42,158 nucleotides of DNA from Polaromonas sp. (GTDB taxonomy: Bacteria; Pseudomonadota; Gammaproteobacteria; Burkholderiales; Burkholderiaceae_C): assembly GCA_004293655.1 (NCBI GenBank), contig RDZZ01000044.1, forward strand, positions 1 to 42,158. Reading direction: 5' to 3'. Numbering within the stretch: the first letter of the stretch is position 1; the number at the start of each line of letters is the position of its first letter. The notes beneath the pieces are model-generated. The model was given only the letters and a program-made list of their open reading frames with translations. It was not told the DNA's origin and did no database searches. A program made the position numbers and the translations under genes. This document shows positions 3,965-35,359 of the stretch, one piece after another.

Positions 3965-5203
3965 TCAATCTGCTTGTTTGCGCAAGAAGGCAGGAATCTC
4001 GAAATCGTCCATCCCGCCTGACGACAATGCATCGACCTTGGCCGCTGCCTGCACGCGGTTGGTGCGCCAGACGCTGGGCTTGTCCATGCTGCCATAGTCT
4101 GGCTGGGCAGAGCCTGCAGACGAGTAGCCTGCGCTGCCTGTGCCTGACATACCTGCCACAGAACTGAGGGTAGGCACATGGAAGGCCACGTTGTCTGTGC
4201 CCGTGCGCAGAACCTGCAGTGGCGGTGCGGTGCGGCGCGTGCTCTGGCGGCTCAGGCCGGTGGCAACTACCGTCACACGAATGTCGTCGCCCAGCTCGTT
4301 GTCATAAGCGGTACCATAAATCACATGGGCATCGGACGACGCGTAAGCGCGAATGGTGTTGACAGCCAGCTGCGACTCTTTGAGCTTGAGCGATCCCCTG
4401 GCCGTCGTGATCAACACCACCACACCCTTGGCACCTGACAGGTCAATGCCTTCGAGCAACGGGCAGGCCACCGCCTGCTCAGCAGCGATGCGGGCACGGT
4501 CAGGGCCGGTGGCCCGGGCAGTTCCCATCATGGCTTTGCCAGGCTCGCCCATCACCGTGCGCACGTCTTCAAAGTCAACGTTGATGTCGCCCTCGACATT
4601 GATGATCTCGGCAATGCCGCCCACCGCGTTTTTGAGCACGTCGTTGGCATGGCCAAAAGCCTGCTCTTGCGTCACGTCGTCGCCCAGCACTTCCAGCAGT
4701 TTTTCGTTGAGCACGACAATCAGCGAGTCCACATTGACTTCGAGCTCAGCCAGCCCGCTGTCGGCATTGGTCATGCGCCTGCCGCCTTCAAACTCAAAGG
4801 GTTTGGTCACCACGCCTACCGTCAAAATACCCATTTCTTTGGCAATGCGGGCAATCACGGGAGCAGCCCCGGTACCCGTACCGCCGCCCATGCCAGCGGT
4901 GATGAACAGCATGTGCGCCCCGGCGATGGCGCTGCGAATGTCGTCCACGGCCAGCTCGGCGGCTTCACGGCCTTTTTCGGGCTTGCTGCCTGCGCCCAGT
5001 CCTGTGCCCCCCAGCTGGATGACCTTGTGTGCGGAACCCTGGCTCAGAGCTTGCGCGTCGGTGTTGGCGCAGATGAACTCCACGCCTTGCACGCCGCAGT
5101 TGATCATGTGCCTGACCGCATTGCCACCACCACCGCCAACACCGATCACCTTGATCTGTGTGCCCTGGTTGAACTCTTCGATTTCAATCATCTCGATGCT
5201 CAT
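3965..5203 (-). CDS. ftsZ: Cell division protein FtsZ
   Basis: GVGGGGGNAVRHM, tubulin signature GGGTGTGAAPV, C-terminal FtsA/ZipA-binding peptide DDFEIPAFLRKQAD. Confidence 0.98.
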   Translation of the reverse strand: MSIEMIEIEEFNQGTQIKVIGVGGGGGNAVRHMINCGVQGVEFICANTDAQALSQGSAHKVIQLGGTGLGAGSKPEKGREAAELAVDDIRSAIAGAHMLFITAGMGGGTGTGAAPVIARIAKEMGILTVGVVTKPFEFEGGRRMTNADSGLAELEVNVDSLIVVLNEKLLEVLGDDVTQEQAFGHANDVLKNAVGGIAEIINVEGDINVDFEDVRTVMGEPGKAMMGTARATGPDRARIAAEQAVACPLLEGIDLSGAKGVVVLITTARGSLKLKESQLAVNTIRAYASSDAHVIYGTAYDNELGDDIRVTVVATGLSRQSTRRTAPPLQVLRTGTDNVAFHVPTLSSVAGMSGTGSAGYSSAGSAQPDYGSMDKPSVWRTNRVQAAAKVDALSSGGMDDFEIPAFLRKQAD

Positions 5204-5348
5204 TGGGAGCCTCCTGTTTTAATGCCTGTTTGCAGTTTCAAAAACTTTTCAAGACCATCCACATTGGAGTGAGTTCTTGAAGGGGGATCTACGCCTGCGG
5301 GCCATGTAGAGCGTGTGGTCGTGCAAATGGGTGTGTCGTTTTGCTGCA

Positions 5349-6578
5349 TCAGAAGTTTCCCACAAACCAGTCTTTCACACGTCCGAAAGCATTGTGCATG
5401 CTGCCAGCTTTTTGCGACACTTTGTAACCGCGCACCCGCGCCAGTCTGGCCTCTTCAAGAAGGCCCATCACGGTGGCTGACCGGGTTTGCGCGACCATGT
5501 CTGACAGCGCGCTGGCGTAGCGTGGCAAGCCTTTGCGTACAGGTTTGAGGAAAATGTCTTCTCCCAGCTCGACCATGCCCGGCATCATGGCGCTGCCGCC
5601 TGTGATCACAATGCCGGATGACAGCATTTCTTCGTAGCCGGACTCGCGGATGACCTGCTGCACCAGCGAGAAAATCTCTTCCACACGCGGCTCGATCACG
5701 CCGGCCAGTGCCTGCTGGCTGAGCATGCGCGGGGCGCGGTCGCCCAGTCCGGGGACTTCGACCTGGGCGTCGGGGTTGGCCAGCAGCTGTTTTGCAAAAC
5801 CGTTGCTCACCTTGATTTCTTCGGCGTCTTTGGTGGGTGTGCGCAGCGCCATGGCAATGTCACTGGTGATCAGGTCACCCGCAATCGGAATGACCGCCGT
5901 GTGCCGGATGGCCCCGCCTGTAAAAATCGCCACGTCTGTGGTGCCCGCACCAATGTCCACCACGGCCACCCCCAGGTCCTGCTCGTCTTGCGTCAGCACG
6001 GCCAGGCTGGACGCGAGTGGGTTGAGCATGAGCTGGTCAACTTCCAGCCCGCAGCGGCGTACACATTTGATGATGTTTTCAGCCGCGCTTTGCGCACCGG
6101 TGACGATGTGAACCTTCGCCTCCAGGCGGATGCCACTCATGCCAATGGGCTCGCGCACATCCTGCCCGTCAATGACAAACTCTTGTGGCTCGACCAGCAG
6201 CAAGCGCTGATCGGTCGAGATATTGATGGCTTTGGCGGTTTCAATCACGCGGGCCACGTCAGCCTGGGTGACTTCCTTGTCTTTGACGGCGACCATGCCG
6301 CTGGAGTTGATGCCGCGAATATGGCTGCCGGTGATGCCTGTATAGACGCGGGCGATCTTGCAATCCGCCATCAGCTCGGCCTCTTTGAGTGCCTGCTGAA
6401 TGCTCTGCACCGTCGCGTCGATGTTGACCACCACCCCGCGCTTGAGGCCGTGGGTCGCTGCAATGCCCAGGCCTGCCAGTTTGAGCTCGCCCCCCGGCAA
6501 CACCTCGGCGACCACAGCAATGACCTTGCTGGTGCCGATGTCCAGACCCACCACCAGGTCTTTGTATTCTTTGGCCAT
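5349..6578 (-). CDS. ftsA: Cell division protein FtsA
   Basis: LVVGLDIGTSKVIAVVAEV, VVDIGAGTTDVAIFTGG, C-terminal VKDWFVGNF. Confidence 0.97.
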   Translation of the reverse strand: MAKEYKDLVVGLDIGTSKVIAVVAEVLPGGELKLAGLGIAATHGLKRGVVVNIDATVQSIQQALKEAELMADCKIARVYTGITGSHIRGINSSGMVAVKDKEVTQADVARVIETAKAINISTDQRLLLVEPQEFVIDGQDVREPIGMSGIRLEAKVHIVTGAQSAAENIIKCVRRCGLEVDQLMLNPLASSLAVLTQDEQDLGVAVVDIGAGTTDVAIFTGGAIRHTAVIPIAGDLITSDIAMALRTPTKDAEEIKVSNGFAKQLLANPDAQVEVPGLGDRAPRMLSQQALAGVIEPRVEEIFSLVQQVIRESGYEEMLSSGIVITGGSAMMPGMVELGEDIFLKPVRKGLPRYASALSDMVAQTRSATVMGLLEEARLARVRGYKVSQKAGSMHNAFGRVKDWFVGNF

Positions 6579-6582
6579 TGTT

Positions 6583-7353
6583 CTACCTTGTTACTTTGAT
6601 GTCGGCTTTGTTGGCCTTGTGGGTCTTGTCGCCAGGGTCGACCGTGGTGACACCCCGTATTTTGAGCGCGTAGCCGTTGCCGTAACGCAGGTCAGCGGAC
6701 TCCAGTTCACGCCCGTAGCGCGATGACACCTGGGACAGCGTGACCAGAAACCGCTCGCATCTCGCACGCACCTCTTCTGGCGAGCCATGGCCCAGCTCAA
6801 TGTCTGCGCCGCTGTCGAGCTGGGCGCGCCAGCTGCCCTGGCTGCTCAGCTCCAGCTGCTGCAGCACGGTGTCGAACTGTTCAAACAGCGGCGACAGTGC
6901 CTCAAAGGCTTGCAGCACCAGCGCAGCCTGCCCCACTGGCCCATTGAGCTGAGGCAGCTCGTCGGCTTCGACTTCGCCCTGGTTGGCGTCAAACACTTCA
7001 CCAAAGCTGTTCAAAAGCCGGGTGTCGCCCTCTGACCCCCAAAACGCAACCGCCTGATGCTCTTGCAACACCACTCTCAGGCGGTTGGGGAATTGCCGGT
7101 GTACAACCGCTTTACGCACCCAGGGCGCCGACTCAAAAACAGCACGCACCCGCGCCATGTCGACCGTGAAAAAATTCCCCTCAAGGCGGGGAGCCACGTT
7201 GGCACGCAATGTCACCGCGTTGTTGTGGGCGACATCGCCCTGCACGCTGATGGCACTGAGGTTGAACACGCTCTGGCGCATCAGCCACGACGCGCCAAGT
7301 GCCAGCACCATGGCCACCAGTACCAGAGACAGCAGCACTGACAAGGCGTTCAT
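6583..7353 (-). CDS. ftsQ: Cell division protein FtsQ
   Basis: MNALSVLLSLVLVAMVLALGASWLM TM segment, POTRA-like ISVQGDVAHNN, APWVRKAVVHRQFPNRLRVVLQEHQAVAFW. ATG at 7353 preferred over the longer repeat-derived ORF. Confidence 0.93.
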   Translation of the reverse strand: MNALSVLLSLVLVAMVLALGASWLMRQSVFNLSAISVQGDVAHNNAVTLRANVAPRLEGNFFTVDMARVRAVFESAPWVRKAVVHRQFPNRLRVVLQEHQAVAFWGSEGDTRLLNSFGEVFDANQGEVEADELPQLNGPVGQAALVLQAFEALSPLFEQFDTVLQQLELSSQGSWRAQLDSGADIELGHGSPEEVRARCERFLVTLSQVSSRYGRELESADLRYGNGYALKIRGVTTVDPGDKTHKANKADIKVTR

Positions 7354-7412
7354 GAGTCTGACGTCCGGTGGATAAAACGCGGCTGCCGGAGCGGACGGTG
7401 GCCGGGCTCGTC

Positions 7413-8435
<1,023 letters not shown>

Positions 8436-8450
<15 letters not shown>

Positions 8451-8492
8451 ACGGCAATGCCTGATTGGATAGTTTGCTCACTTATTTGCAGC
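8436..8492 (-). repeat. Dispersed 17/23 repeat copy spanning the murC 3' end and ddlB 5' end
   Basis: - strand GCTGCAAATAAGTGAGC-N23-GTATGAGCCAAAATACC. Same geometry as copies at 9953, 28540, 30864 and 40772; gccaaaatacc is identical to the 40772 copy. Confidence 0.65.
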
Positions 8493-9880
8493 ATATCCAG
8501 TACCTTTTGCGGCACGCTGCCCATCGAGCCAGCGCCCATGCAGACCACCACATCGCCCGCCAAGGCGTTGTCCACAATAGCTTGCGGCATGGCCTCAATG
8601 GCATCGACAAAAATCGGCTCGACCTTGCCCACCACGCGCAGGGCACGCGCCAGCGAACGGCCATCGGCTGCCACGATGGGCGCTTCGCCTGCGGCATACA
8701 CCTCAGACAGCAGCACAGCGTCGGCGTGGCCGATGACCTTGACGAAATCCTCAAAACAGTCGCGCGTGCGGCTGTAGCGGTGCGGCTGAAATGCCAGCAC
8801 CAGGCGCCGGCCCGGAAAAGCGCCACGCGCAGCGGCCAGCGTGGCGGCCATCTCGACCGGGTGGTGGCCGTAGTCTTCAATCAGTGTGAAGTGCCCGCCC
8901 TTCTGGCCAGGTACCTCGCCATAGCTTTGAAAGCGGCGCCCCACACCCTTGAACTGCGCCAGTGCTTTTTGCACGGCAGCGTCTGGCACATTGAGTTCAA
9001 CCGCCACCGCAATGGCCGACAAGGCATTGAGCACATTGTGCTCGCCTGCCAGGTTGAGCACCACGTCCAGGTCAGGCAGCGTGACGCCATTGCGCCTGTG
9101 TACGGTGAAATGCATTTGGCCACCGACTGCCCGCACGTTGACAGCGCGTACCTGCGCTTGGTCATTAAAGCCGTAGCTGGTGATGGGGCAAGACACCTGC
9201 GGCACGATGCTGCGCACGGCAGCGTCGTCGGTACACAAAATGGCGGTGCCATAAAAAGGCATGCGGTGCAGAAAATCGACAAAGGCTTGCTTGAGCTTGC
9301 CAAAGTCATGGCCATAGGTTTCCATGTGGTCGGCGTCGATGTTGGTGACCACCGCCATCACGGGCAGCAGGTTCAAAAACGAGGCATCTGACTCGTCCGC
9401 CTCCACCACAATGTAGTCGCCCGAACCCAGTTTGGCGTTCGCGCCCGTGCTGTTGAGCCGCCCGCCAATCACAAAGGTCGGGTCCAGCCCACCTTCAGCC
9501 AGTATGCTGGCCACCAGACTGGTGGTGGTGGTTTTGCCGTGCGTGCCCGCAATGGCAACGCCCTTTTTCAAGCGCATCAGCTCGGCCAGCATCAGGGCGC
9601 GGGGAACCACCGGAATACGCTTTTCACGGGCGGCCAGCACTTCCGGGTTGTCCGCCCGTACCGCTGTGGAGGTCACCACCGCGTCAACGCGGGCCAGGTT
9701 GTCTGCAGCGTGGCCGACAAAGGTCTGGATGCCAAGGCTTTGCAGGCGGCGCAGCGTGGGGCTGTCCGCCAGGTCGGAGCCAGAGATCACATAGCCCAGG
9801 TTGTGCAGCACCTCGGCAATGCCCGACATGCCGGAGCCGCCCAGGCCAATGAAGTGAATGTGTTGGATGGTGTGTTTCAT
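8447..9880 (-). CDS. murC: UDP-N-acetylmuramate--L-alanine ligase
   Basis: [41 protein letters not shown]; overlaps ddlB. Confidence 0.97.
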
Positions 9881-9884
9881 GTCG

Positions 9885-10973
9885 TCAATTTCTCGCCAAG
9901 GTCTCGCAGGCAGCCACCACTTGGTCTGTTGCCTCTGTTTTATGCATCTTTTTGGCCTCTACCGCAACTTCCATAAGGGTTTGTCGCTCTGTTTTTTGTA
10001 GCATGGATGCCAGACTCGCAGCACTCAAGTCGCGCTGCTGCACCAGCCAGCCAGCGCCTTGATCGACCAGAAAGCGGGCATTGCCGGTTTGGTGGTCATC
10101 GACTGCCGCCGGGAAAGGCACGAACAGCGCGGCCGCCCCAACAGCGGCAATTTCCGTCACCGTGCTGGCCCCGGCGCGGCAGACGATGAGGTCCGCCGCC
10201 GCAAAAGCGCTGGCGGTGTCTTCAATAAACGGCGTGAGCGTTGCGTCCACGCCTGCTGCCAGGTAGTTGGCGCGCAGCGCATCCATCTGGCTTTTGCCGC
10301 TTTGGTGGGTCACCCGTGGCCGTTGGTCGCCGGGTATCAAGGCGAGGGCTTGCGGCACCAGGGTGTTCAAGGCGCTGGCACCCAAACTGCCGCCCACCAC
10401 CAACACGTGCAGCGGCCCGGTGCGCCCGGCAAAACGGGTGGCCGGGTCGGCCTGCGCCGTAAACGCTGGGCGCAGGGGGTTGCCCACGCATTGGGCATTT
10501 TTGAGCACATTGGGAAAGGCTGTAAAAACCCGGTCAGCGACTGCGGCCAGCACCTTGTTGACCATGCCCGCCACCGAGTTTTGTTCATGCAGCACCAGGG
10601 GCTTGCCCAACAGCACGCTCATCATGCCCGCCGGAAAAGCAATGTAGCCGCCAAAACCCAGCACCACGTCTGGCTTGACGCGCCGGATCACCCGCACGCT
10701 TTGCCAGAAAGCCCTGAGCAGCCGCAGCGGTAAAAATGCCAGCGTGGCCACGCCCTTGCCGCGCACCCCCGAAAACGCAATCGACTCAAAAGCAAAGCCG
10801 TGCGGTGGCACCAGCTGGCTTTCCATGCTGGGCTGGCTGGCTGTGCCTGCGCTGCCCAGCCAATGCACGCGCCAGCCGCGCTCGCGCAAAGCCTCGGCCA
10901 CGGCAAGGCCCGGAAAAATATGCCCCCCCGTGCCCCCGGCCATCACCAGAGCAGTCCGCACAGGGGTGTTCAT
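9885..10973 (-). CDS. murG: UDP-N-acetylglucosamine--N-acetylmuramyl-(pentapeptide) pyrophosphoryl-undecaprenol GlcNAc transferase
   Basis: [58 protein letters not shown]. Confidence 0.97.
9953..10002 (-). repeat. Dispersed 17/23 repeat copy within the murG 3' region
   Basis: - strand GCTACAAAAAACAGAGC-N23-GTAGAGGCC. Spacing identical to the other copies; translated [17 protein letters not shown]. Confidence 0.55.
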
Positions 10974-12232
10974 GCGCGGCCTCCGCGCATCAAAAGGCGG
11001 TTCTCATAATCGATTCGCAGCACCACGGCGAGCGAGATCAGGTTCATCAAGATCGCAGAGCCGCCGTAACTCATCAAGGGCAGCGTCAGGCCCTTGGTGG
11101 GCAGTGCGCCCAGATTGACGCCAATGTTGATGAAGGTCTGAAACCCGATCCAGATTCCTACGCCCTGGGCCACCAGCCCTGCAAACAGGCGATCCAGGGC
11201 AATCGACTGACGGCCAATGTGCATGATGCGCCGGGTCATCCACATGAACAAAGCAATGACCGCCAGCACGCCCACCAGGCCAAACTCTTCACCGATCACA
11301 GCCATCAAAAAGTCGGTGTGCGCCTCAGGCAGCCAGTGCAGCTTTTCGATGCTGCCGCCCAGACCCACCCCAAACACCTCGCCCCGCCCAAAAGCAATCA
11401 GGGAGTGCGACAACTGGTAGCCTTTGCCCATGGCGTATTTCTCGCTCCACGGGTCCAGGTAGGCAAAAATCCGCTCACGCCGCCATTCGCTGAGCATGAC
11501 CATCAGGGCGAACGCGACCACCACCACCGCTGCAATGACAAAAAACATGCGGGCATTGACGCCGCCCAGAAACAAAATGCCCATGGCAATGACTGAGATC
11601 ACCATGAAAGCGCCCATGTCAGGCTCGGCCAGCAGCAGCGAGCCGACCACGGCAATGGCTGCCGCCATGGGCAGAACAGCACGGAAAAAGCGCTCTTTGA
11701 CATCCATTTTGCGGACCATGTAGTCCGCCGCATACAGCAGCACCGCAAACTTGGCCAGCTCTGAGGGCTGAAAGTTCATGAACCCCAGCGTGATCCAGCG
11801 CCGCGCACCATTGACACCCTTGCCAATAAAGGGCACCAGCACCAGCATGAGCAGCACCAGCGACACCACAAACAGCCAGGGAGCGAGTTTTTCCCAGGTC
11901 GCTATCGGCACCTGAAAAGCCACCACGGCGGCAATGAAAGCCACCATCAGCGAGACCACATGGCGCGTCAGGAAGTGGGTGTGGGCATAGCGTGCGAACT
12001 TGGGGTTGTCCGGCATGGCCACTGATGCCGAATACACCATGACCAAGCCAAACATCAGCAGCGCCACCGTGACCCAGATCAGCGCCTGGTCAACCCCCGC
12101 AATACGCGCCGGGGTGCTGGGCATGCGCGACAGGCTTTGCCGGCCTAGCCGCACAGGCAGCACATCAGAGGCGGCTTTGCCGATGCCCGAAAACCAGCCG
12201 GCCAGGCGCGTGGCAGCGGTCATCACTGTCAC
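10970..12232 (-). CDS. ftsW: Lipid II polymerase / cell division protein FtsW
   Basis: [52 protein letters not shown]. Confidence 0.97.
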
Positions 12233-13734
12233 AGAACCACCCCTTCTTCCAGAGCCAGGGCGCGCACGGCATCACAAAACACGTGCGCGCGGTGTTCATA
12301 GTTGTCAAACATGTCAAAACTCGCGCAAGCTGGAGACATCAGCACAGCGTCTCCAGCGCTTGCCTGCTGCTGGGCAAGTTGGACAGCCTGCGGCATCGAC
12401 ACCGCATCCAGCAGGGGCACAGACACACCCTGCAGCGCAGTCCGTATCAAGGGCGCATCCCGCCCGATGAGCACCACCGCACGGGTGTAGCGGGCCACAG
12501 GTTCTGCCAGGGGTGAAAAGTCTTGCCCCTTGCCTTCGCCGCCCAAAATCAGTACCAGCCGACGCTCGGCCCCTAGCCCGGCCAGCGCAGCAGCCGTGGC
12601 CCCGACGTTGGTGCCCTTGCTGTCATCGACATACTCGACCCCGGCGACAACGCCGACAGGCTCTACCCGGTGCGGCTCGCCCCGGTAGTCACGCAGGCCG
12701 TGCAGCATGGCGGCCAGACTGCAGCCGGCAGCCACCGCCAGGCCAAGTGCCGCCAGCGCATTGGTCGCGTTGTGACGGCCCCGAATGCGCAGGGCGTCGA
12801 GCGGCATCAGGCGTTGGATGTGCAGCATCACTTCGTCATCTTTGCGCCGCTTGAAGGTCTCATCAAGCTCCAGCGCGCGTACCAGCCAGGCCATGCCGTT
12901 GACCATTTCAATGCCCCAGTCTCCAGGGCGTGTAGGTGCATCACCGCCAAAAGTGAAGTAACTGCGCAACTGTTTGCCTTTGACCAGCGGCGGCAGGGCT
13001 GCCATCAGAAGCGGGTCATGGCGGTTGAGCAGCATCACCCCTGTGGGGCCATAGACATTGGCTTTGGCCGCACGGTAGGCACCAAAGGTTTCATGCCAGT
13101 CCAGGTGGTCTTGCGTGACGTTCAAAACCGTTGCCGCTGTAGGCTCAAAGTTTTTGATGCCATCGAGCTGAAAACTTGACAACTCAAGCACCCAGACGTC
13201 GGGCAGGGCTTGCCCCAGCGCCGCAGCATCGAGCTTTTCGGTCAGGGTGTCGAGCAGTGTCGGGCCAATATTGCCTGCCACTGCAACGGACTTTCCGGCA
13301 CGCTGCACCAGCTGGCCCGTCAGCGAGGTCACAGTCGTTTTGCCGTTGGTGCCCGTGATGGCAATGACTTGCGGCGCATAAGCCTGCGCTGCTTTCAGGT
13401 CTGCCAGCGCTTGCGCAAACAGGCCAAGCTCGTTGTCGCACGCGATGCCGCGCGCCTGAGCAGCTGTCACCACACCGGCAATTGATGCGGGCGACAGGCC
13501 AGGGCTTTTCAGCACCCTGTCAAAAGGTGTTCCATCAAGCAGCGATGGCCCCATGTCTGAATGCACAAAAATGGCTGAAGGCACGCTGGTTTGCAGGGCC
13601 TGCAACTGCGGCGGTACAGCCCGCGTGTCTGCCACGGTAACCTGTGCGCCAGCGCGAGCACACCAGCGGGCCAGTGCCAGGCCTGAACTGCCCAAGCCCA
13701 GAACGAGCACGTGTTGATCGGCAAGGTCTTTCAT
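12229..13734 (-). CDS. murD: UDP-N-acetylmuramoyl-L-alanine--D-glutamate ligase
   Basis: [47 protein letters not shown]. Confidence 0.97.
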
Positions 13735-13740
13735 GGCCGT

Positions 13741-14919
13741 TTACCGCAGCTTGAGTGTTGACAGACCCACCAGGCACAGCAGCATGGTGATGATCCAGAA
13801 GCGCACCACAACCTGCGTTTCTTTCCAGCCGCTTTTCTCAAAATGGTGGTGCAGGGGCGCCATCTTGAGAACGCGGCGACCGGTGCCAAAGCGCTTTTTG
13901 GTGTATTTGAAGTACGTCACCTGCAGCATGACCGACAGGGCCTCGACCACAAAAATGCCACCCATGATGGCCAGCACAATTTCCTGACGCACGATCACTG
14001 CAATGGTGCCCAATGCAGCGCCCAAAGCCAGCGCCCCCACATCGCCCATAAAAACCTGGGCCGGATGGGTGTTGAACCACAAAAACGCCAGACCGGCACC
14101 GGCCATGGCGGCGCAAAATATCATCAGCTCGCCCGAGCCGGGAATATGCGGGAAAAACAGGTATTTGGAATAAACCGCACTGCCCGTGACGTAGGCAAAT
14201 ACACCCAGAGCCGAGCCCACCATGACGACCGGCATGATGGCCAGGCCGTCCAGGCCATCGGTCAGGTTGACGGCGTTGCTTGAACCCACAATGACCAGAT
14301 ACGTCAAAATCACAAAACCGAACACGCCCAGCGGGTAGCTGATTTCTTTGACAAACGGCACCAGCAAGCCTGCCTTGGGCGGCAAATTCACATCAAAGCC
14401 TGATTGCACCCAGCTGAAAAACAGCTGCAGCACACGCAGGTTGGAACTCTCGGAAATGCTGAACACCAGGTAAAGCGCAGCCACCAGGCCCACCAGAGAC
14501 TGCCAGAAATACTTCTCACGCGAGCGCATACCCTCGGGGTCTTTATGGACCACCTTGCGCCAGTCGTCCACCCAGCCAATCGCGCCAAACCCGAGCGTGA
14601 CCAGCAACACAATCCAGACAAACCGGTTCGACAGGTCAGCCCACAGCAGGGTAGATATGGCAATGCACAACAAAATCAGTACGCCGCCCATGGTGGGCGT
14701 GCCTGACTTGCTCAAATGGGTTTGCATGGCGTAGTCACGAATGGGCTGGCCGATTTTCAGCTCAGTCAACCTGCGAATCACAAACGGGCCAGCCACCAGC
14801 CCCAGCAGCAGCGCGGTCACAGCAGCCATCACGGCCCGAAATGTCAGGTACTGAAACACCCGAAAGGAGCCAAACTCTGGCGATAAGGACTGCAGCCACT
14901 GGGCCAGACTAAGCAACAT
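13741..14919 (-). CDS. mraY: Phospho-N-acetylmuramoyl-pentapeptide-transferase
   Basis: [66 protein letters not shown]. Start at MLLSLAQWL (14919); 14943 possible. Confidence 0.96.
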
Positions 14920-16309
14920 GAGACGGTTCCGAAAAAATGACATGCGCGGCACTGATGGCCTGCACCACGCGCTCCATCTGCATGGAGCGGGAGCCCTTGA
15001 CGAGCACACTGGCAAACTGCGGCAGTGCCGCCAAAACGGCTGCGTTCAGTGCCGCCATATCCGTGAAATGTTGCCCCGACCCAAAACTGTGGGCAGCACG
15101 CGCAGACTGCACGCCCAGGGCAAATAATTGGTCAATGCCGCGCTCGCGTGCCAGGTGCCCGGCTTCTTCATGAAACTGCGGCCCGTCGCTGCCCACTTCA
15201 GCCATGTCGCCGATGACCAGCAAGCGCGGGCCGGGCAGCTCAGCGAGAACGTCAATAGCCGCGTGCATGGAGTCAGGGTTGGCGTTATAGGTGTCGTCGA
15301 TCAGCGCCATCGAGCGCCCTGAGACCGTGACGGGTATTGCGCGTGAACGGCCTTTGACAGGTTCAAAAACCTGCAGACCAGCGGCAATACAGACCAGCGG
15401 TACACCCGCAGCCAGCGCACAGGCCAGGGCTGCCAGCGCATTTTTAACATTGTGCCGCCCGGCAATGCCAAGTGTGAACTCAACCTGTCCTGACGGCGTT
15501 TCAGCCTGGACTTGCCAGCGGTTGTTGGCCCAGTGGGCAGCCGCTGTGACATCTGCAGTGCCGCCCAGCGCAAAGGTCAGTGTTTTGCGCGCGCCTGCCA
15601 TTTTTTGCCACAGCGCGGTGTAAGCGTCATCTGCAGGGAACACCGCAACACCTTGGGCGTCCAGTGCCTCAATGACCGAGCCGTTCTCAAGCGCAACGGC
15701 CTCTACGGTGGACATGAACTCCAGGTGCTCGCGCTGGGCATTGTTCACCAACGCAATGGCGGGGCGAGCCAGCCCGGCCAGGTAAGCAATCTCACCGGGA
15801 TGGTTCATGCCCAGCTCCACCACGCCGATCTGGTGCGCAGGCCGCAGGCGCAACAGCGTCAGGGGCACGCCAATGTCGTTGTTGAAATTGCCTTGTGTCG
15901 AAAAAGCAGCATCAGGTTTGTAGGCGCGCAAAATCGACGCAATCATCTGGGTGACGGTAGTTTTGCCATTGCTGCCCGTCACGGCGATCAGGGGCAAGTC
16001 AAATTGCGAGCGCCAGCTTGACGCAAGTCGCCCCAGCGCCAGCTTTGAGTCACTGACCTCAAGACCTGGCAAGCCGGCCATAGACAAGCCGTGGTGGGCC
16101 ACAGCAGCGGTTGCACCACTGGCTTTGGCCTGGGCTAAAAAGTCATGGGCATCGAAGTTTTCACCTTTGAGTGCGACAAACAAATCGCCCTTTTGAAGTG
16201 TTCGGGTGTCGGTATGCACGCGGTCAATGTGCGTTTGTCCGCTACCCACCAGTGCAGCAGGCACTGGCCCGGCAGCGAGCCAGTCGTGGGCTTGTTGCAG
16301 GCTCATCAT
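14909..16309 (-). CDS. murF: UDP-N-acetylmuramoyl-tripeptide--D-alanyl-D-alanine ligase
   Basis: [43 protein letters not shown]. Confidence 0.96.
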
Positions 16310-17814
16310 GGGGCAACTCCTGCGCTGTTCACAAGCCGTGCATCCGTAAGGCGTGCATCCAGTGCTGCCTGCGCGTGCTGCACGTCAGAAAAAGGGTGTT
16401 TCACGCCATCCATGTCCTGATAGGTCTCATGCCCCTTGCCCGCCAGCAGCACCACATCACAAGGCTGTGCGCGCGCTACGGTTTGCGCAATCGCCAGTGC
16501 CCGGTCAGGCTGTACATGAACCGAGTCACCCCGCGTTAGCCCCTGCAGGATGTGGTCGATGATGCGCTGCGGGTCTTCACGACGCGGGTTGTCGCTGGTC
16601 ACCACCAGCTGGTCTGCATTCTTCTGTGCGCTAGCCGCCATCAAGGCTCGTTTGGATGTGTCGCGGTCACCACCACAGCCAAACAGGCACCATAGCTGGC
16701 CGCCCCGGCTGTGCGCCACACCGTGCAGTGCCAGCAATACTTTTTCCAGCGCATCGGGCGTGTGGGCATAGTCAATCGCCACCAGAGGCTGACCAGAATT
16801 TGCCAGGGTTTCAAGCCGTCCAGGCACAGACGGCAACGCGCTGGCAGCCGTTGCTGCATCTGCAAGCGACATACCCAGGGCGCGCATGGCAGCGACCACG
16901 CCCAGTAAATTGGACACGTTGTACAGACCGACCGTTGGCGCCGTGACCCGATGCCGCTGGGCGCCTTCGACCACCTCAAAAGCCAGCGTTTGCAGGCCTT
17001 GGCAAATCGCCTGCGCCTGCAGCCGGGCAGGTCTTTGAGCCGAGACAGTCCAGACATCCAGTGGCGACTTCGCCAGACTGGCAGCCAGCATTGAGCCTTG
17101 GGCATCATCGACATTGATCACTGCAGCTTCAAGTCCAGGCCAGGCAAACAGCGCCTCTTTTGCAGCCCAATAGGCCTGCATGGAGCCGTGGTAGTCCAGA
17201 TGGTCTTGTGTGAAGTTGGTGAACATGGCCACACGGATGTGCGTGGCATCCAGCCGGTGCTCGGCCAGACCAATCGATGAGGCTTCCAGGGCGCAGGCCA
17301 CAAAACCCTGATCCACAAGGCAGCGGAGCTGTTGCTGCAGCAGCACCGGGTCGGGCGTGGTCAGGCCATTGGCAACCAGCGCGTCGGGCGCGCCTATGCC
17401 CAGCGTACCGACTACCCCGCACTTGCGGCTCAGGCGGCCTAAAGCCTGGGCCAGCCACCAGGCGGTTGATGTCTTGCCGTTGGTGCCCGTCACAGCCACC
17501 ACCTGCAGCTGCTGGCTGGGTGCATTGAAGTAGCTCGCAGCAATCGGCGCTGCAGCAGCTTTGAGCCCTGCGTAGCCCGCAATGCGCTCGTCCGAGAACC
17601 CGAAGGGGTCAACACCCTGCGCTTCAACCAGGCAGGCTGCGGCACCAGCAGCCAGCGCACCCGGCACATAGTGGCGGGCATCGGTCGCAGCGCCTGGCCA
17701 GGCAATCAGACCGTCGCCTTGGCCAATTGTGCGACTGTCGGCTGACAGCTTGCCCGTCACGCGTGCGCACAGCCAGGCCGCGGCTTGTTCGGGCGTGTGC
17801 AAAAGGGTCATCAA
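16306..17814 (-). CDS. murE: UDP-N-acetylmuramoyl-L-alanyl-D-glutamate--2,6-diaminopimelate ligase
   Basis: VTGTNGKTSTAWWLAQAL, NFTQDHLDYHG, YAHTPDALEKVL, DNPRREDP (meso-DAP specificity type DNPR). Confidence 0.96.
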   Translation of the reverse strand: MMTLLHTPEQAAAWLCARVTGKLSADSRTIGQGDGLIAWPGAATDARHYVPGALAAGAAACLVEAQGVDPFGFSDERIAGYAGLKAAAAPIAASYFNAPSQQLQVVAVTGTNGKTSTAWWLAQALGRLSRKCGVVGTLGIGAPDALVANGLTTPDPVLLQQQLRCLVDQGFVACALEASSIGLAEHRLDATHIRVAMFTNFTQDHLDYHGSMQAYWAAKEALFAWPGLEAAVINVDDAQGSMLAASLAKSPLDVWTVSAQRPARLQAQAICQGLQTLAFEVVEGAQRHRVTAPTVGLYNVSNLLGVVAAMRALGMSLADAATAASALPSVPGRLETLANSGQPLVAIDYAHTPDALEKVLLALHGVAHSRGGQLWCLFGCGGDRDTSKRALMAASAQKNADQLVVTSDNPRREDPQRIIDHILQGLTRGDSVHVQPDRALAIAQTVARAQPCDVVLLAGKGHETYQDMDGVKHPFSDVQHAQAALDARLTDARLVNSAGVAP

Positions 17815-19544
17815 AACGACTCCACAACGGCTGGCGTGACGATCTGCGGCTTCACCGACATGTCGGGCTGCACGCCCATCATGCGAAGCGTTTGTTGCAC
17901 CACTTCGCTAAACACGGGTGCGGCTGCAATACCGCCGTAGTAGTTGCCGTCACTTGGCTCGTCAATCATGACGGCAACAATGATACGGGGGGACTCGATC
18001 GGTGCCATGCCAGTAAACCAGGCCCGGTATTTGTTGCTGGCATAGCCTTTACCGACCTGCTTGCGGGCAGTGCCTGACTTGCCGCCGACCGAGTAGCCCA
18101 CGGTTTGCGCCAGCGGTGCGGTACCACCCGGCGCAGCTGCCATTTGCAGCATCTGGCGAATTGCACGCGCATTCTCGGGGGAAAACACCTTCACACCCAC
18201 TGCGGGTTCGCTGCTTTTGAGCATCGTCGTCGCGATGATCTCGCCGTCATGCGCAAACGAGGTGTAGGAGTGCGCCATCTGGAACAGCGAGGCTGACAAC
18301 CCGTATCCATAGGACATGGTGGCCTGCTCGACAGGACGCCAGGTTTTCCAGGGTCGCAGGCGCCCGGTGACTGCACCGGGGAACTGAATTTGCGGCTTCT
18401 GGCCGTAGCCCAGCGCGGTGTAGGTGTCCCACATCTCGCGCGGTGTCATTTTTTGCGCGATCTTGAGCGAGCCCACATTGCTGGACTTTTGAATCACGCC
18501 CTCCACCGTCAGGGTGCCGTAGTTGTGCGTGTCGTTGATGGTGAAGCCGCCGATGTTGAAGCGTCCAGGCCCGGTTTCTATCGTGGTTTTCGGCGTGATC
18601 CGGCCCGCTTCAAGTGCCATCCCGACCGTGATCGGCTTCATGGTCGAGCCTGGCTCAAACGTGTCTGTCAGCGCCCGGTTGCGCAGCTGCTCGCCTGAGA
18701 GGTTTTGACGTTTGTTGGGCTCATAGCTGGGGTAATTGGCCAGCGCCAGCACTTCACCCGTGATGGTGTCAAGCACGACCACACTGCCTGCCTTGGCCTT
18801 GTGGCGCAAGACGGCATCACGCAGTTTTTGATAGGCCACAAACTGCACCTTGCTGTCCAGGCTGAGCTGAATGTCTTTGCCGTCCATTGGCGGGACTTGC
18901 TCGCCTACGTCTTCAACCACCCGCCCCAGCCGGTCCTTGATGACGCGGCGCGAGCCTGCACGTCCCGACAGATCTTTGTTGAACCTGAGCTCAATGCCAT
19001 CCTGGCCCCGGTCTTCAACGTTGGTAAAGCCCACCACATGGGCGGCAGTCGCGCCTTCCGGGTATTGCCGTTTGTACTCCTTGCGCTGGTAGATACCCTT
19101 GATCCCCAAAGCGCTGATTTTCTGGGCCACAGGGTCATCGACCTGCCGCCTGATCCAGACAAAGCTCTTGTCTTCGTTGGCCAGTTTTTTAGTCAACTCT
19201 GCCAGTGGCATGTCTAAAAGCGTTGCCAGTGCGGCGAGCTGCTCGGCGCTCGCCTCCACATCTTCCGGGATGGCCCAGATGCTGGGCGCTGGCACGCTGG
19301 ACGCCAGAATCAGGCCATTGCGGTCAAGAATGCGGCCACGGCTGGCGGGCAGCTCCAGCGTGCGGGCAAAGCGAACCTCGCCCTGACGCTGGAAAAAATC
19401 ATTGCCAAACACCTGCACATAGGCTGCACGGCAAGCCAGCCCCAGAAAAGCCAGGGCAATGCCGCCCACAATGAGCTTGCTGCGCCACACGGGCGTTTTA
19501 CTGGCCAGCAAGGGGCTGGATGTGTAGCGCACGCTTTTATTCAT
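17811..19544 (-). CDS. ftsI: Peptidoglycan D,D-transpeptidase FtsI / PBP3
   Basis: RGRILDRNGLILASS, EPGSTMKPITV (SxxK), SSNVG (SxN), VGGKSGTAR (KSGT). Confidence 0.97.
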   Translation of the reverse strand: MNKSVRYTSSPLLASKTPVWRSKLIVGGIALAFLGLACRAAYVQVFGNDFFQRQGEVRFARTLELPASRGRILDRNGLILASSVPAPSIWAIPEDVEASAEQLAALATLLDMPLAELTKKLANEDKSFVWIRRQVDDPVAQKISALGIKGIYQRKEYKRQYPEGATAAHVVGFTNVEDRGQDGIELRFNKDLSGRAGSRRVIKDRLGRVVEDVGEQVPPMDGKDIQLSLDSKVQFVAYQKLRDAVLRHKAKAGSVVVLDTITGEVLALANYPSYEPNKRQNLSGEQLRNRALTDTFEPGSTMKPITVGMALEAGRITPKTTIETGPGRFNIGGFTINDTHNYGTLTVEGVIQKSSNVGSLKIAQKMTPREMWDTYTALGYGQKPQIQFPGAVTGRLRPWKTWRPVEQATMSYGYGLSASLFQMAHSYTSFAHDGEIIATTMLKSSEPAVGVKVFSPENARAIRQMLQMAAAPGGTAPLAQTVGYSVGGKSGTARKQVGKGYASNKYRAWFTGMAPIESPRIIVAVMIDEPSDGNYYGGIAAAPVFSEVVQQTLRMMGVQPDMSVKPQIVTPAVVESF

Positions 19545-31474: not shown

Positions 31475-32311
31475 ATGAAATCTAACGCTCCCGGCCCTCG
31501 CCCCAACGACCAACTCGAACACGCGCTGCTCGCTGCCTGGTCAACTCAGGCCGATGTTGGTATCTGTGTGGTCGATGAGAGCCTGCGGGTGGTGATGCTC
31601 AACACCGCCGCCAGCGCCATGCTGGGCGTTGACAGCCTGGCCATGCTCAATGAGCCGTTTGTCAAGCTGGTAGCGGCAGTGAGCTTTTTGCCCGGTATTG
31701 CACAGTGGCTGGGCACACCCGGCTTTTCAGGCGAGCGCCATGCCAGCTGCAAGACACAAGGTGCCACGACTGACCTGCTGTTCAAGGCCACCACCGTGCA
31801 TGCGCCCGGATTTGCCGACCCCGCCGAGGCCGGGACAGCCTTGGGGAAGTTCAAAGTCATCGCCATCACTGATATCAGTGCGCTCTTGGCGGCACAGCGG
31901 CATGTCGATTCTGAAACCTACCGTCGGCAGTGGCAAGCCCTCAATGCGGGCGTTGTGATCTCGGACGCCCGCCTGCCCGATATGCCCATCGTGTACGTCA
32001 ACCCCATGTTTGAGCAAATGAGCGGCTATGCTGCCAGCGAAGTGTTAGGGCGTAATTGCCGGTTTTTGCAGGGCAGCGATACGCTCCAGCCCGGTATAGA
32101 AGCCATCCGGCGCGCCATTCGCGAGCAGTCCAACGGCTACGCCATGCTGCGTAACTACCGTCGAGACGGCAGTGTGTTCATGAATGAGTTGTTCGTCTCC
32201 CCCGTCAAGGACGACACAGGCGCTGTGACGCACTTTGTGGGCATTCAGCACTTGGTCACGCCTGCACCTGAAGTTGTCCAGCTGGCCAAAGCCAGCCGTC
32301 ATGCGCTGTGA
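31475..32311 (+). CDS. PAS-LOV photoreceptor-like protein (N-terminal PAS-like plus C-terminal LOV)
   Basis: VVISDARLPDMPIVYVNPMFEQMSGYAASEVLGRNCRFLQGSDTLQPGIEAIRRAIREQSNGYAMLRNYRRDGSVFMNELFVSPVKDDTGAVTHFVGIQ. GRNCRFLQ is the canonical LOV flavin-cysteinyl motif (TGC codon 32057-32059). Confidence 0.92.
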   Translation: MKSNAPGPRPNDQLEHALLAAWSTQADVGICVVDESLRVVMLNTAASAMLGVDSLAMLNEPFVKLVAAVSFLPGIAQWLGTPGFSGERHASCKTQGATTDLLFKATTVHAPGFADPAEAGTALGKFKVIAITDISALLAAQRHVDSETYRRQWQALNAGVVISDARLPDMPIVYVNPMFEQMSGYAASEVLGRNCRFLQGSDTLQPGIEAIRRAIREQSNGYAMLRNYRRDGSVFMNELFVSPVKDDTGAVTHFVGIQHLVTPAPEVVQLAKASRHAL

Positions 32312-33114
32312 CTGATACGGCTGTAGATAGCGACCCTTCCACGCGCCTCGAGCGCGCAGCACTGACTTATTGTGTGGAGGGCCTGCAGCCGCGCGAAGAG
32401 CTGCTGGTCAAATCATTTATCCGTCTGCTAGACCACCTGACGCACCAACAATGGCGTTACCAGCCCCCCGATGGCAAAACGCATATTCACCTGCTGCTGG
32501 CAGCGCCCGGCACCAGCGAAGCCTTTGCTGCACGCTACGGCAAGCTGCCAGCCGCGCTGCTAGAACTCGGCCACGGGCATTTGTCTTGGCCATTGCGCCC
32601 GGATGTGCTGGAGAGAGAACTCAACCGCCTTGGCAGCCTGGCGACGACCCAGCGCGCCGACACCACACAGGCCGACACCACACAGGCCAACAGCGCGCAG
32701 TTGTTAACAGGCATGTTGTTAAGCCAGACCCAGCCACTGCAAACGCCTACAGGCGCGATGCGTCTGAAACAATGGCCTTCCTCACATTTATTGTCTGGCC
32801 CAGGCCGCATGCGTCTTGCAACATTGTTGACAGGCCAGCCCATGGATGTCGATGAGCTGGTTCGTCGTTCAAAACTGGAGCGGCGCATATGCCAGACATT
32901 TGTCAACGATCTTCAGCACGCCGGATTGCTGCACTACGCTACGTCTGTGCAGCCCGCCCCGACCATTGGGTCGCAGGCGACACAGCCATTGCCTGCCTCG
33001 TCATCCATGCCGCAAGAAGTTCGCACGGCCATTGCGGCAAAGCCCGCTTTGGCGTCTGCTGGCCTGCTCAATCGCATCCGGATACGTCTGGGCATCGGAA
33101 AACTGCGTGGTTAA
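32308..33114 (+). CDS. Hypothetical protein with C-terminal winged-helix-like segment; cassette partner
   Basis: GTGA start/stop overlap with the LOV gene. Helix-turn-helix-like LATLLTGQPMDVDELVRRSKLERRICQTFVNDLQHAGLLHY near the C-terminus. Confidence 0.8.
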   Translation: MTDTAVDSDPSTRLERAALTYCVEGLQPREELLVKSFIRLLDHLTHQQWRYQPPDGKTHIHLLLAAPGTSEAFAARYGKLPAALLELGHGHLSWPLRPDVLERELNRLGSLATTQRADTTQADTTQANSAQLLTGMLLSQTQPLQTPTGAMRLKQWPSSHLLSGPGRMRLATLLTGQPMDVDELVRRSKLERRICQTFVNDLQHAGLLHYATSVQPAPTIGSQATQPLPASSSMPQEVRTAIAAKPALASAGLLNRIRIRLGIGKLRG

Positions 33115-33164
33115 AAGTACATGAAAGCCCCAAGTAACGCTCCAAGTAACGCCCCCATACACCC

Positions 33165-33707
33165 ATGAGCGACCATAAAATACTTTTCAGTGGCACCACT
33201 GGCGCAGGCAAAACCACAGCCATCCGCGCGGTCAGCGAGACACCGCCCATGTCCACCGACGTGCGCAACACCGACACAGGTCTGTCCAAGGAAATGACCA
33301 CCGTCGGGCTCGACTACGGCGAGTTAACGCTCGATAACGGTGACAAACTTCGCCTGTATGGCACGCCGGGACAAAAACGGTTTGACTTCATGTGGACGAT
33401 TCTGTCCAAAGGCGCGCTCGGTCTGGTGATATTGATTGACAACCGCCAGCCAGACCCGCTGGCTGACCTGGACATGTACCTCAATGGCTTTAAACAACTC
33501 ATCGCGGACACGGCCTGTGTGATCGCCGTAGGCCGAACCGAGACCCACCCTGCCCCAGACCTCGAACAGTACGCCAGCCACCTGGCCGCGCGTGGCATTT
33601 TGTGCCCTGTGCTGGCCGCAGATGTGCGCGACGCACCGCAGGTGGTACAACTGCTGGAGTTGCTGCTGCTGCAACTGGAAATGAAAATGGAGAGCACGTG
33701 CCCATGA
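33165..33707 (+). CDS. Small Ras-like GTPase (COG2229 / CvnD-MglA-like)
   Basis: MSDHKILFSGTTGAGKTTAIRAVS (P-loop), EMTTVGLDYGEL (G2 Thr), LYGTPGQKRFDFMWTILSKGALGLVILID (G3-like). Confidence 0.92.
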   Translation: MSDHKILFSGTTGAGKTTAIRAVSETPPMSTDVRNTDTGLSKEMTTVGLDYGELTLDNGDKLRLYGTPGQKRFDFMWTILSKGALGLVILIDNRQPDPLADLDMYLNGFKQLIADTACVIAVGRTETHPAPDLEQYASHLAARGILCPVLAADVRDAPQVVQLLELLLLQLEMKMESTCP

Positions 33708-34087
33708 CCATTCACCCGAATCTGCAACGCGCGTGTGACCGCGCACTCAACGATCTGATGCTTGACATCAAAGGCATCAAGGCGGTGGTGGTGTCCACTG
33801 AAGATGGTTTTGAAGTGGCGGCCCGCGTCGAGAACACTGCGCAGATTGCCCGGTTGTCTGCCATGGCCAGCTCGCTCGCAGCGCTGGGCGCCATGGCGGG
33901 CGAAGAAAGCCGTCTGGGTGTGTGTGAGAGCATCATCATGCAAGCTGCCGAAGGCTTTATTGCCATCATCCAGGTTCGACGCGCCGATGTGTCGCTGATC
34001 GTCAGCGTGGTGACCGGGCGCGACGCGGTGACCGGCCAAGTGCTGTACTTTTCCAAAAAAGCAGCAAAGTCGCTGCAAGATGCTTGA
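33704..34087 (+). CDS. Roadblock/LC7 domain protein (MglB-like), copy 1
   Basis: ATGA overlap with the GTPase. MTIHPNLQRACDRALNDLMLDIKGIKAVVVSTEDGFEVAARVENTAQIARLSAMASSLAALGAMAGEESRLG. Confidence 0.88.
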   Translation: MTIHPNLQRACDRALNDLMLDIKGIKAVVVSTEDGFEVAARVENTAQIARLSAMASSLAALGAMAGEESRLGVCESIIMQAAEGFIAIIQVRRADVSLIVSVVTGRDAVTGQVLYFSKKAAKSLQDA

Positions 34088-34517
34088 AGCAAACGGTCGC
34101 CAGCATATGCCCAACACAGCGCAAGTCATGGCCCATCTGCAGGTGCTGGCACACTTCCCTGGCATTGACGGTTGTGCGCTGGTTGAAACCGCCACTGGCA
34201 TGGTGTGGCACGCTGCAGGCAACTACCCAGAACTTGAACGCATCGGCGAAGCTGCCATCGAGTTCTGGCGTGTTCAAGACCGATTGACGGCGCACTTGTC
34301 GACCCTGGGCACCCTCCAGTCAGCGGCCTATTCATTTTCCAGCCGTGTCGTGGCCTTGTTCCCGTGCAGTGAAAAAGCCGGCCTGGTGCTGGTGTGCGTA
34401 GCAGCAAAGGGCCATGTAGGCTGGCAGGCGTGGAGCACCAAGGTCGATGCCTTGCGCCGCGCGCTGGAACAGTCCTTGACAACATCTGCAATACCCACTG
34501 GCCTGGTAGAAAAGTGA
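34080..34517 (+). CDS. Roadblock/LC7-like protein, copy 2 (divergent)
   Basis: 8-bp overlap with copy 1. MAHLQVLAHFPGIDGCALVETATGMVWHAAGNYPELERIGEAAIEFWRVQ matches the roadblock beta-hairpin/helix layout. Confidence 0.65.
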   Translation: MLEANGRQHMPNTAQVMAHLQVLAHFPGIDGCALVETATGMVWHAAGNYPELERIGEAAIEFWRVQDRLTAHLSTLGTLQSAAYSFSSRVVALFPCSEKAGLVLVCVAAKGHVGWQAWSTKVDALRRALEQSLTTSAIPTGLVEK

Positions 34518-34665
34518 TGGGCGCAACATTGGCAGCACAGAATTTGCACAGACCCCTTGCCTCAACAACTTCCATCAAGTTTTTTGCAACCGCTTTCATC
34601 ACGCCGTGGCGGTGGCATCTGTTTTCAGGCGTCGACCATTCATTTATTCTCAAGGAAATTTTCAA

Positions 34666-35025
34666 ATGGCAACCATCAACCAGTCCATGCAAGAACTTCT
34701 GACCTGCGACGGTGCCTTGTGCGCCGCGCTGGTGGACTCATCAAGCGGCATGATTTTGGGTCAGGCCGGCTCGGGTGTTGACATGGAAGTCGCCGCTGCA
34801 GGAAACACCGAAGTGGTGCGCGCCAAGCTCAAAACCATGCGTGCATTGGGGCTCAATGATGTTGTTGAAGACATTTTGATCACGCTCGGAAAGCAGTACC
34901 ACATCATTCGCCCCATGGCACGCAAAGAAGGTCTGTTTGTGTACATCGTGCTTGACAAGTCCAAGTCCAACCTGGCGCTGGCACGCCGAAAAGTGCAGGA
35001 AGTCGAAAAAGACCTGATTGTCTGA
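34666..35025 (+). CDS. Roadblock/LC7-like protein, copy 3 (divergent)
   Basis: MATINQSMQELLTCDGALCAALVDSSSGMILGQAGSGVDMEVAAAGNTEVVRAKLKTMRALGLNDVVEDILITLGKQYHIIRPMARKEGLFVYIVLD. Confidence 0.75.
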   Translation: MATINQSMQELLTCDGALCAALVDSSSGMILGQAGSGVDMEVAAAGNTEVVRAKLKTMRALGLNDVVEDILITLGKQYHIIRPMARKEGLFVYIVLDKSKSNLALARRKVQEVEKDLIV

Positions 35026-35113
35026 GCGGTATCGAGCCGTATCTGGCTTGCATCCCGCATGCTGATTTGCCACGTCACAAAACTTGCCACACAACACAGA
35101 AGATTGAATTTTT

Positions 35114-35359
35114 ATGCCAATTTTGAAAATAAAAGTTTGCCATGCCGATGGCGGCGCGATGCACGGGCTGGAGGTAAAAGTGACGGGTTGCGGGCAACTG
35201 CTCACCGATGCAGAGGGGCGCGCGCAGTTCCTGACCGAATCAAACACCCATGTTGCGATAGAGATCAACGGCGCTGGTGTCTGGTCTGGGCCTGCTGACA
35301 GTCTCCATCGCGAAGAGACTTTTTTGCAATCTGCCAGCGGGTTCACACGCTCGATTTAA
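35114..35359 (+). CDS. Small beta-rich hypothetical protein (81 aa)
   Basis: MPILKIKVCHADGGAMHGLEVKVTGCGQLLTDAEGRAQFLTESNTHVAIEINGAGVWSGP; carboxypeptidase-regulatory/Ig-like strand pattern, last gene of the cassette. Confidence 0.65.
   Translation: MPILKIKVCHADGGAMHGLEVKVTGCGQLLTDAEGRAQFLTESNTHVAIEINGAGVWSGPADSLHREETFLQSASGFTRSI

Follow-up and report, generated by a model that had tools for sequence, protein, structure and literature searches.

The DNA analysed here is a 42,158-nucleotide stretch of Polaromonas sp. (contig RDZZ01000044.1 of GenBank assembly GCA_004293655.1; hereafter the window), and its positions 31475-35359 on the + strand carry a cassette in which the gene of a PAS-LOV protein, a putative blue-light receptor, directly precedes the genes of a Ras-like GTPase module. 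We propose, with a probability of about 0.62, that this locus encodes an MglA switch of Group 3 that has gained its own blue-light input, in which the LOV protein acts through the adjacent protein P2 and the Roadblock protein R1 serves as the GTPase-activating protein (GAP). The Group 3 core is known; the PAS-LOV input and the set of three Roadblock proteins, including the Pfam-invisible R3, go beyond its published description. An earlier note, made from the sequence alone, had described seven co-directional genes in this region, and all of the open reading frames were found at the places given there, as follows.

31475..32311, + strand: PAS-LOV protein, 278 amino acids; N-terminal PAS domain, LOV domain at about residues 150-262, 16-residue tail, no output domain; proposed light input
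32308..33114, + strand: P2, 268 amino acids; GTG start; receiver-like and winged-helix regions; proposed input port and exchange factor
33165..33707, + strand: MglA-family small GTPase, 180 amino acids; assigned by motifs and relatives
33704..34087, + strand: R1, MglB/CvnB-type Roadblock protein with an invariant Asp-Gly pair; proposed GAP
34107..34517, + strand: R2, divergent and Roadblock-like; lacks the Asp-Gly pair; start moved from 34080
34666..35025, + strand: R3, third Roadblock protein by predicted fold; no Pfam match, no Asp-Gly pair
35114..35359, + strand: small beta-rich protein, 81 amino acids; accessory

In the window, the LOV stop overlaps the GTG start of P2 by 4 bp, and the GTPase stop overlaps the start of R1 by the same length, as the earlier note had claimed. 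The third overlap claimed there, between R1 and R2 (ATG at 34080, stop at 34087), did not hold: it is probably a mechanical extension of the reading frame, because the relatives begin R2 at MPNT or MPNN, equivalent to window position 34107 and leaving a gap of 19 nucleotides (nt) to R1. The 81-residue beta-rich protein follows R3 in only one other genome (G350, L128/L071; E = 1.8e-16).

Linkage of the LOV gene to the cassette

In five genomes, which belong to three genera and include that of the window, P2 is immediately preceded by the PAS-LOV gene. The other carriers are G350 (L071) and G310 (L073, with the locus split over two contigs) in Polaromonas, and G036 (L072) and G208 (L074) in two other genera. 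LOV and P2 overlap by 4 bp in three of the five carriers and are separated by gaps of 33 and 17 nt in the other two, and no orthologous genes are shared among the flanks of the five LOV cassettes. The LOV cassette is thus conserved beyond a single strain, a point on which the earlier note had made its proposal depend, and the claim that a flavin photoreceptor gene is joined to a GTPase/Roadblock module is borne out by a coupling that is both specific and repeated. Away from the cassette, no full-length protein of this PAS-LOV type was found in the genus, in 401 genomes of the family or in a scan of genome contigs.

In the GTPase tree, the LOV carriers form one clade, with a single gain (support of 83 in the Shimodaira-Hasegawa-like approximate likelihood ratio test), and the identities of LOV and GTPase are correlated (r = 0.86 over ten non-independent pairs). 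For the core genes, the ratio of nonsynonymous to synonymous substitution rates (dN/dS) lies well under 1; for LOV, synonymous sites are saturated. Because of the single clade and gain, the correlated divergence, the low dN/dS of the core and the lack of PAS-LOV relatives of this type in the other genomes searched, LOV and the core, judged from their sequences, behave as a single inherited unit. LOV is an add-on in five genomes, not a part of the core. In the open-access literature, no report was found that connects LOV to bacterial MglA or Roadblock GTPase systems.

The PAS-LOV protein

The LOV domain matches the domain of a solved LOV histidine kinase (E = 1e-34) and the YtvA LOV region in NCBIfam (1e-36), confirming the canonical motif GRNCRFLQ read earlier from the sequence. 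The LOV signature is complete in the window protein, with Cys195 in GRNCRFLQ and the flavin-contact positions N227, N237 and Q258. All five carriers retain the photoactive Cys, and they also retain the remaining flavin contacts wherever these positions were assembled. No output domain is present beyond PAS and LOV. Photosynthetic reaction-centre genes occur in just one of the five LOV genomes, and a tie of LOV to phototrophy was rejected on this ground.

Natural LOV domains linked to a G-protein regulator are known from fungal LOV-RGS proteins (RGS, regulator of G-protein signalling), which, unlike the Polaromonas cassette, serve heterotrimeric G-protein signalling in eukaryotes and have the two domains fused. 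The plant PAS/LOV PROTEIN (PLP) is similar in having PAS and LOV but no enzymatic output domain; its binding to a partner is stronger in darkness and is diminished by blue light (PMC10602610). The partner of PLP, however, is VTC2 and no GTPase, and common descent beyond the domain order is not claimed.

Group 3 MglA features of the core

The related GTPase is present in 38 of 301 sampled genomes of the family and in 15 of the 87 genomes of the window's genus, with relatives up to 84% identical. Loci with the window-type GTPase carry P2-GTPase-R1, usually together with R2 and R3; by manual tally, R3 is found in about 30 of 33 such cassettes, one of them partial. Chance is far from explaining the arrangement, given that about 30 loci share the core synteny and that the core dN/dS is so low.

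The P-loop small GTPase of the earlier note was assigned to the MglA family. Its P-loop is GTTGAGKTT, G2 contains TT (EMTTVG), with threonine replacing the G2 arginine, and G3 contains GTPGQ (LYGTPGQKRF), both TT and GTPGQ being invariant across the GTPase alignment. G4 departs from [NT]KxD (VGRTET), and G5 is DVR (ADVRD) in the window and DAR or DVR in relatives. A more distant related GTPase (L193, 44% identity) lies at the start of the record NZ_CP033119.1, a plasmid of Acinetobacter wuhouensis typed as conjugative, with transposases and an EAL protein nearby and no gene listed at the GTPase itself.

Group 3 MglA systems of beta- and gamma-Proteobacteria are reported to have GTPGQ, a threonine replacing the G2 arginine, a non-[NT]KxD G4, a DAR-like G5, one or two coupled MglBs and an uncharacterised conserved protein whose receiver-like and winged-helix regions are joined by a variable linker, with no sensor described (PMC4316618). 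Because the cassette shares the GTPase motifs and a coupled MglB with the Asp-Gly pair, and has in P2 a probable counterpart of the conserved partner, the core (P2, GTPase, R1, R2 and R3) is assigned to this known type, by features rather than by placement in the published tree. Unlike the published systems, it has three Roadblock proteins and a PAS-LOV photoreceptor. The Group 1 MglA/MglB systems of Myxococcus and Thermus likewise pair a small GTPase with a Roadblock GAP, and a type IV pilus output may be common to both; the cassette GTPase, however, has GTPGQ, TT and a degenerate G4 in place of the TVPGQ, intrinsic arginine finger and canonical G4 of Group 1, and membership of Group 1 was rejected.

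The earlier description of the module as conservon-like stands as an analogy, not as membership. Similar to the actinobacterial conservons (Group 2; CvnA-D, Mfp), the cassette holds a sensor, a Roadblock protein, a winged-helix protein and a GTPase in one operon. GTPGQ and D[AV]R are common to the GTPase and CvnD, R1 matches CvnB, and the winged helix and tail of P2 align with CvnC/DUF742 of Streptomyces and Euzebya conservons (hhalign probability 86%). In contrast, a search for the DUF742 family (PF05331) found it in none of 21 genomes, the window's own included, and the window's cassette has no CvnA-type histidine kinase such as the conservon reference loci have. The gene order also differs, the cassette has three Roadblock proteins and a soluble flavin sensor, and its core fits Group 3 MglA.

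Roadblock proteins

Three Roadblock proteins had been claimed for the cassette, a count that stands firmly for R1 and R3 and weakly for R2. R1 matches the profile of the Roadblock protein CvnB5 (E = 1.3e-10), and its Asp-Gly pair, D34 G35, is invariant in 22 sequences. R3 matches no Pfam model; its AlphaFold model (predicted TM-score 0.83) has the alpha-beta-beta-alpha-beta-beta-beta-alpha Roadblock fold and matches MglB in Foldseek with a TM-score of 0.80, so that R3 is a Roadblock protein by predicted fold. It is also the most conserved protein of the cassette, with 80% mean column identity. R2 matches LAMTOR2 weakly (E = 0.02) and is a probable Roadblock protein. Profile comparisons gave a partial match between R2 and R3, and no significant match between R1 and R3 or between R1 and R2.

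R3-type Roadblock genes also occur in other settings. In L167, L174 and L177, no related GTPase was found nearby, and these genes are possibly orphans like the mglB of Snodgrassella. At L178:6777-8018 (G652), a receiver, a PATAN-like region (recognized by eye) and an R3-type Roadblock share a single open frame.

P2 and a possible transcriptional output

In the P2 alignment, two conserved regions flank a variable linker, and a C-terminal GLLxRIRxRLG tail is conserved. The N-terminal receiver-like domain has no evident phosphoacceptor Asp in the window protein. P2 matches no family above curated thresholds, DUF742 included. In its AlphaFold model, the N-terminal domain is of mixed alpha/beta structure and a helical region resembles a winged helix, so that the secondary structure agrees with that of the Group 3 partner. 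Receiver domains and winged helices were matched weakly in fold, and Foldseek gave no match at E <= 0.001. The tail was also considered as an amphipathic membrane anchor and rejected, its hydrophobic moment not being above that of shuffles in the window protein.

Alternatively, the cassette may serve light-regulated transcription, with the PAS-LOV and GTPase/Roadblock proteins controlling DNA binding by the winged helix of P2 and P2 being the output. The C-terminal domain of P2 resembles SmtB/ArsR winged helices (SmtB at E = 0.002 in the profile search), and a transcriptional role was suggested for this Group 3 protein family by Wuichet & Sogaard-Andersen (PMC4316618). However, the SmtB match is weak, P2 aligns to CvnC with its tail included, and the nearest characterised counterpart, CvnC/MfpC, is reported as a likely guanine nucleotide exchange factor rather than a transcription factor (PMC13343842). 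We therefore regard a transcriptional output as unlikely.

Proposed mechanism

In the proposed blue-light switch, light would form an adduct between Cys195 and flavin mononucleotide in the PAS-LOV protein, and the adduct would change the binding of PAS-LOV to P2, most simply at the receiver-like domain, which would take the signal by protein contact and not by phosphorylation. By analogy with MfpC, the CvnC-like winged helix of P2 may then act on the GTPase as an exchange factor or a scaffold. R1 carries the Asp-Gly pair and would be the GAP, as are MglB and the CvnB homologue MfpD (PMC13343842), whereas R2 and R3, which lack the pair, may be platforms of the MglC kind that have no catalytic role. 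Surface behaviour would be the output governed by the GTP state, most likely through type IV pili. PilT is present in all five LOV genomes. In Snodgrassella, which carries a Group 3 system, mutation of an orphan mglB changed motility, an effect that the authors attribute to type IV pili (PMC11112851).

Other sensors beside related cassettes

A sister group of cassettes (L062-L067, L054, L056, L057, L060 and L134) carries, after R1 and near a long P2 and the GTPase, a PAS protein of about 164 residues that matches the PAS domain by which the aerotaxis receptor Aer binds flavin adenine dinucleotide (FAD; E = 5e-39), and is possibly a redox-gated version of the module. In one examined locus of this group, a phosphonate-binding-like protein follows the Aer-type PAS. 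Moreover, in G519 (L173:6503-8107), a BLUF domain (Pfam E = 8.6e-19) stands before or is fused to a distant R3 homologue. The open frame there consists of BLUF, a middle region without a Pfam match and an R3-type Roadblock, with a Shine-Dalgarno-like AAGGGAGA ahead of the R3 ATG, and may be either a fusion or two cistrons. BLUF-R3 was rejected as a conserved arrangement, because of 64 genomes of that family only the one that carries it gave a full-length match.

That flavin sensors of different kinds occur close to a single type of GTPase module suggests that the Group 3-type module accepts interchangeable inputs, although LOV and the Aer-type PAS are the only ones seen more than once. Two further neighbourhoods were observed. 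In G100, of the same genus (L032:8984-12349), the place of LOV is taken by a multi-PAS histidine kinase, about 187 nt ahead of P2, a single case that may be coincidence. In G129 (L168:7825-12121), a PAS-PAS-GAF-GGDEF-EAL protein and a chemoreceptor-like protein lie directly downstream of P2-GTPase-R1-R3. Several other open reading frames upstream of the cassette in relatives were set aside as unrelated housekeeping genes.

These sensors also bear on what the LOV protein perceives, which could be redox state or oxygen through its flavin instead of light, as in the sister group with its Aer-like FAD-binding PAS. LOV domains are able to respond to redox, and no reaction centre was detected in four of the five LOV genomes. 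The intact photoactive Cys in every carrier argues against such a role, since a pure redox use needs no conservation of this cysteine, and we consider a redox or oxygen sensor improbable. That the LOV gene is a mere operon neighbour signalling elsewhere agrees with the lack of LOV in most Group 3 cassettes but is highly improbable, given that LOV always abuts P2 across five chromosomal contexts, overlaps it in three carriers and has no relatives of its type found elsewhere.

Surroundings of the cassette

Upstream of the cassette, a cell-division and cell-wall cluster (FtsZ, Mur ligases and a penicillin-binding-protein transpeptidase) occupies window positions 3965-19490 on the - strand. Promoter and terminator scans gave no excess over chance, and no RNA features were found in the window. 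PADLOC returned no matches, on which ground a defence-system role for the cassette was rejected.

Weight of the evidence and significance

Several points weigh against a dedicated blue-light switch of this kind. Most Group 3 cassettes lack LOV, among them those of G100, G368 and G369 in the same genus; the support for a single LOV clade is moderate, and all five carriers are apparently metagenome-assembled genomes. The fold assignment of P2 is weak, and its match to CvnC could be generic winged-helix similarity. Among the other sensors, the BLUF case is a singleton. The photochemistry, the light-to-GTPase step and the output are inferred, and PilT does not discriminate, because it is common in this order.

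Group 3 MglA was defined in 2014 without an identified input, and its output is little known. A photoreceptor supplies an input that an experimenter can turn on and off, which opens every step between sensor, GTPase and output to direct tests under illumination and in darkness. R3, if its predicted fold is correct, would be a core Roadblock component that has been missed by Pfam models. More broadly, and tentatively, the Group 3 MglA modules of Burkholderiales may use interchangeable stand-alone flavin sensors (LOV, Aer-type PAS and, once, BLUF), with the window clade being a natural light-gated Ras-like switch that steers surface behaviour. In summary, a Ras-like switch is probably operated by light in the bacteria that carry the LOV cassette, which, if true, would be a natural case of light controlling a bacterial Ras-like GTPase and would be useful to optogenetics.

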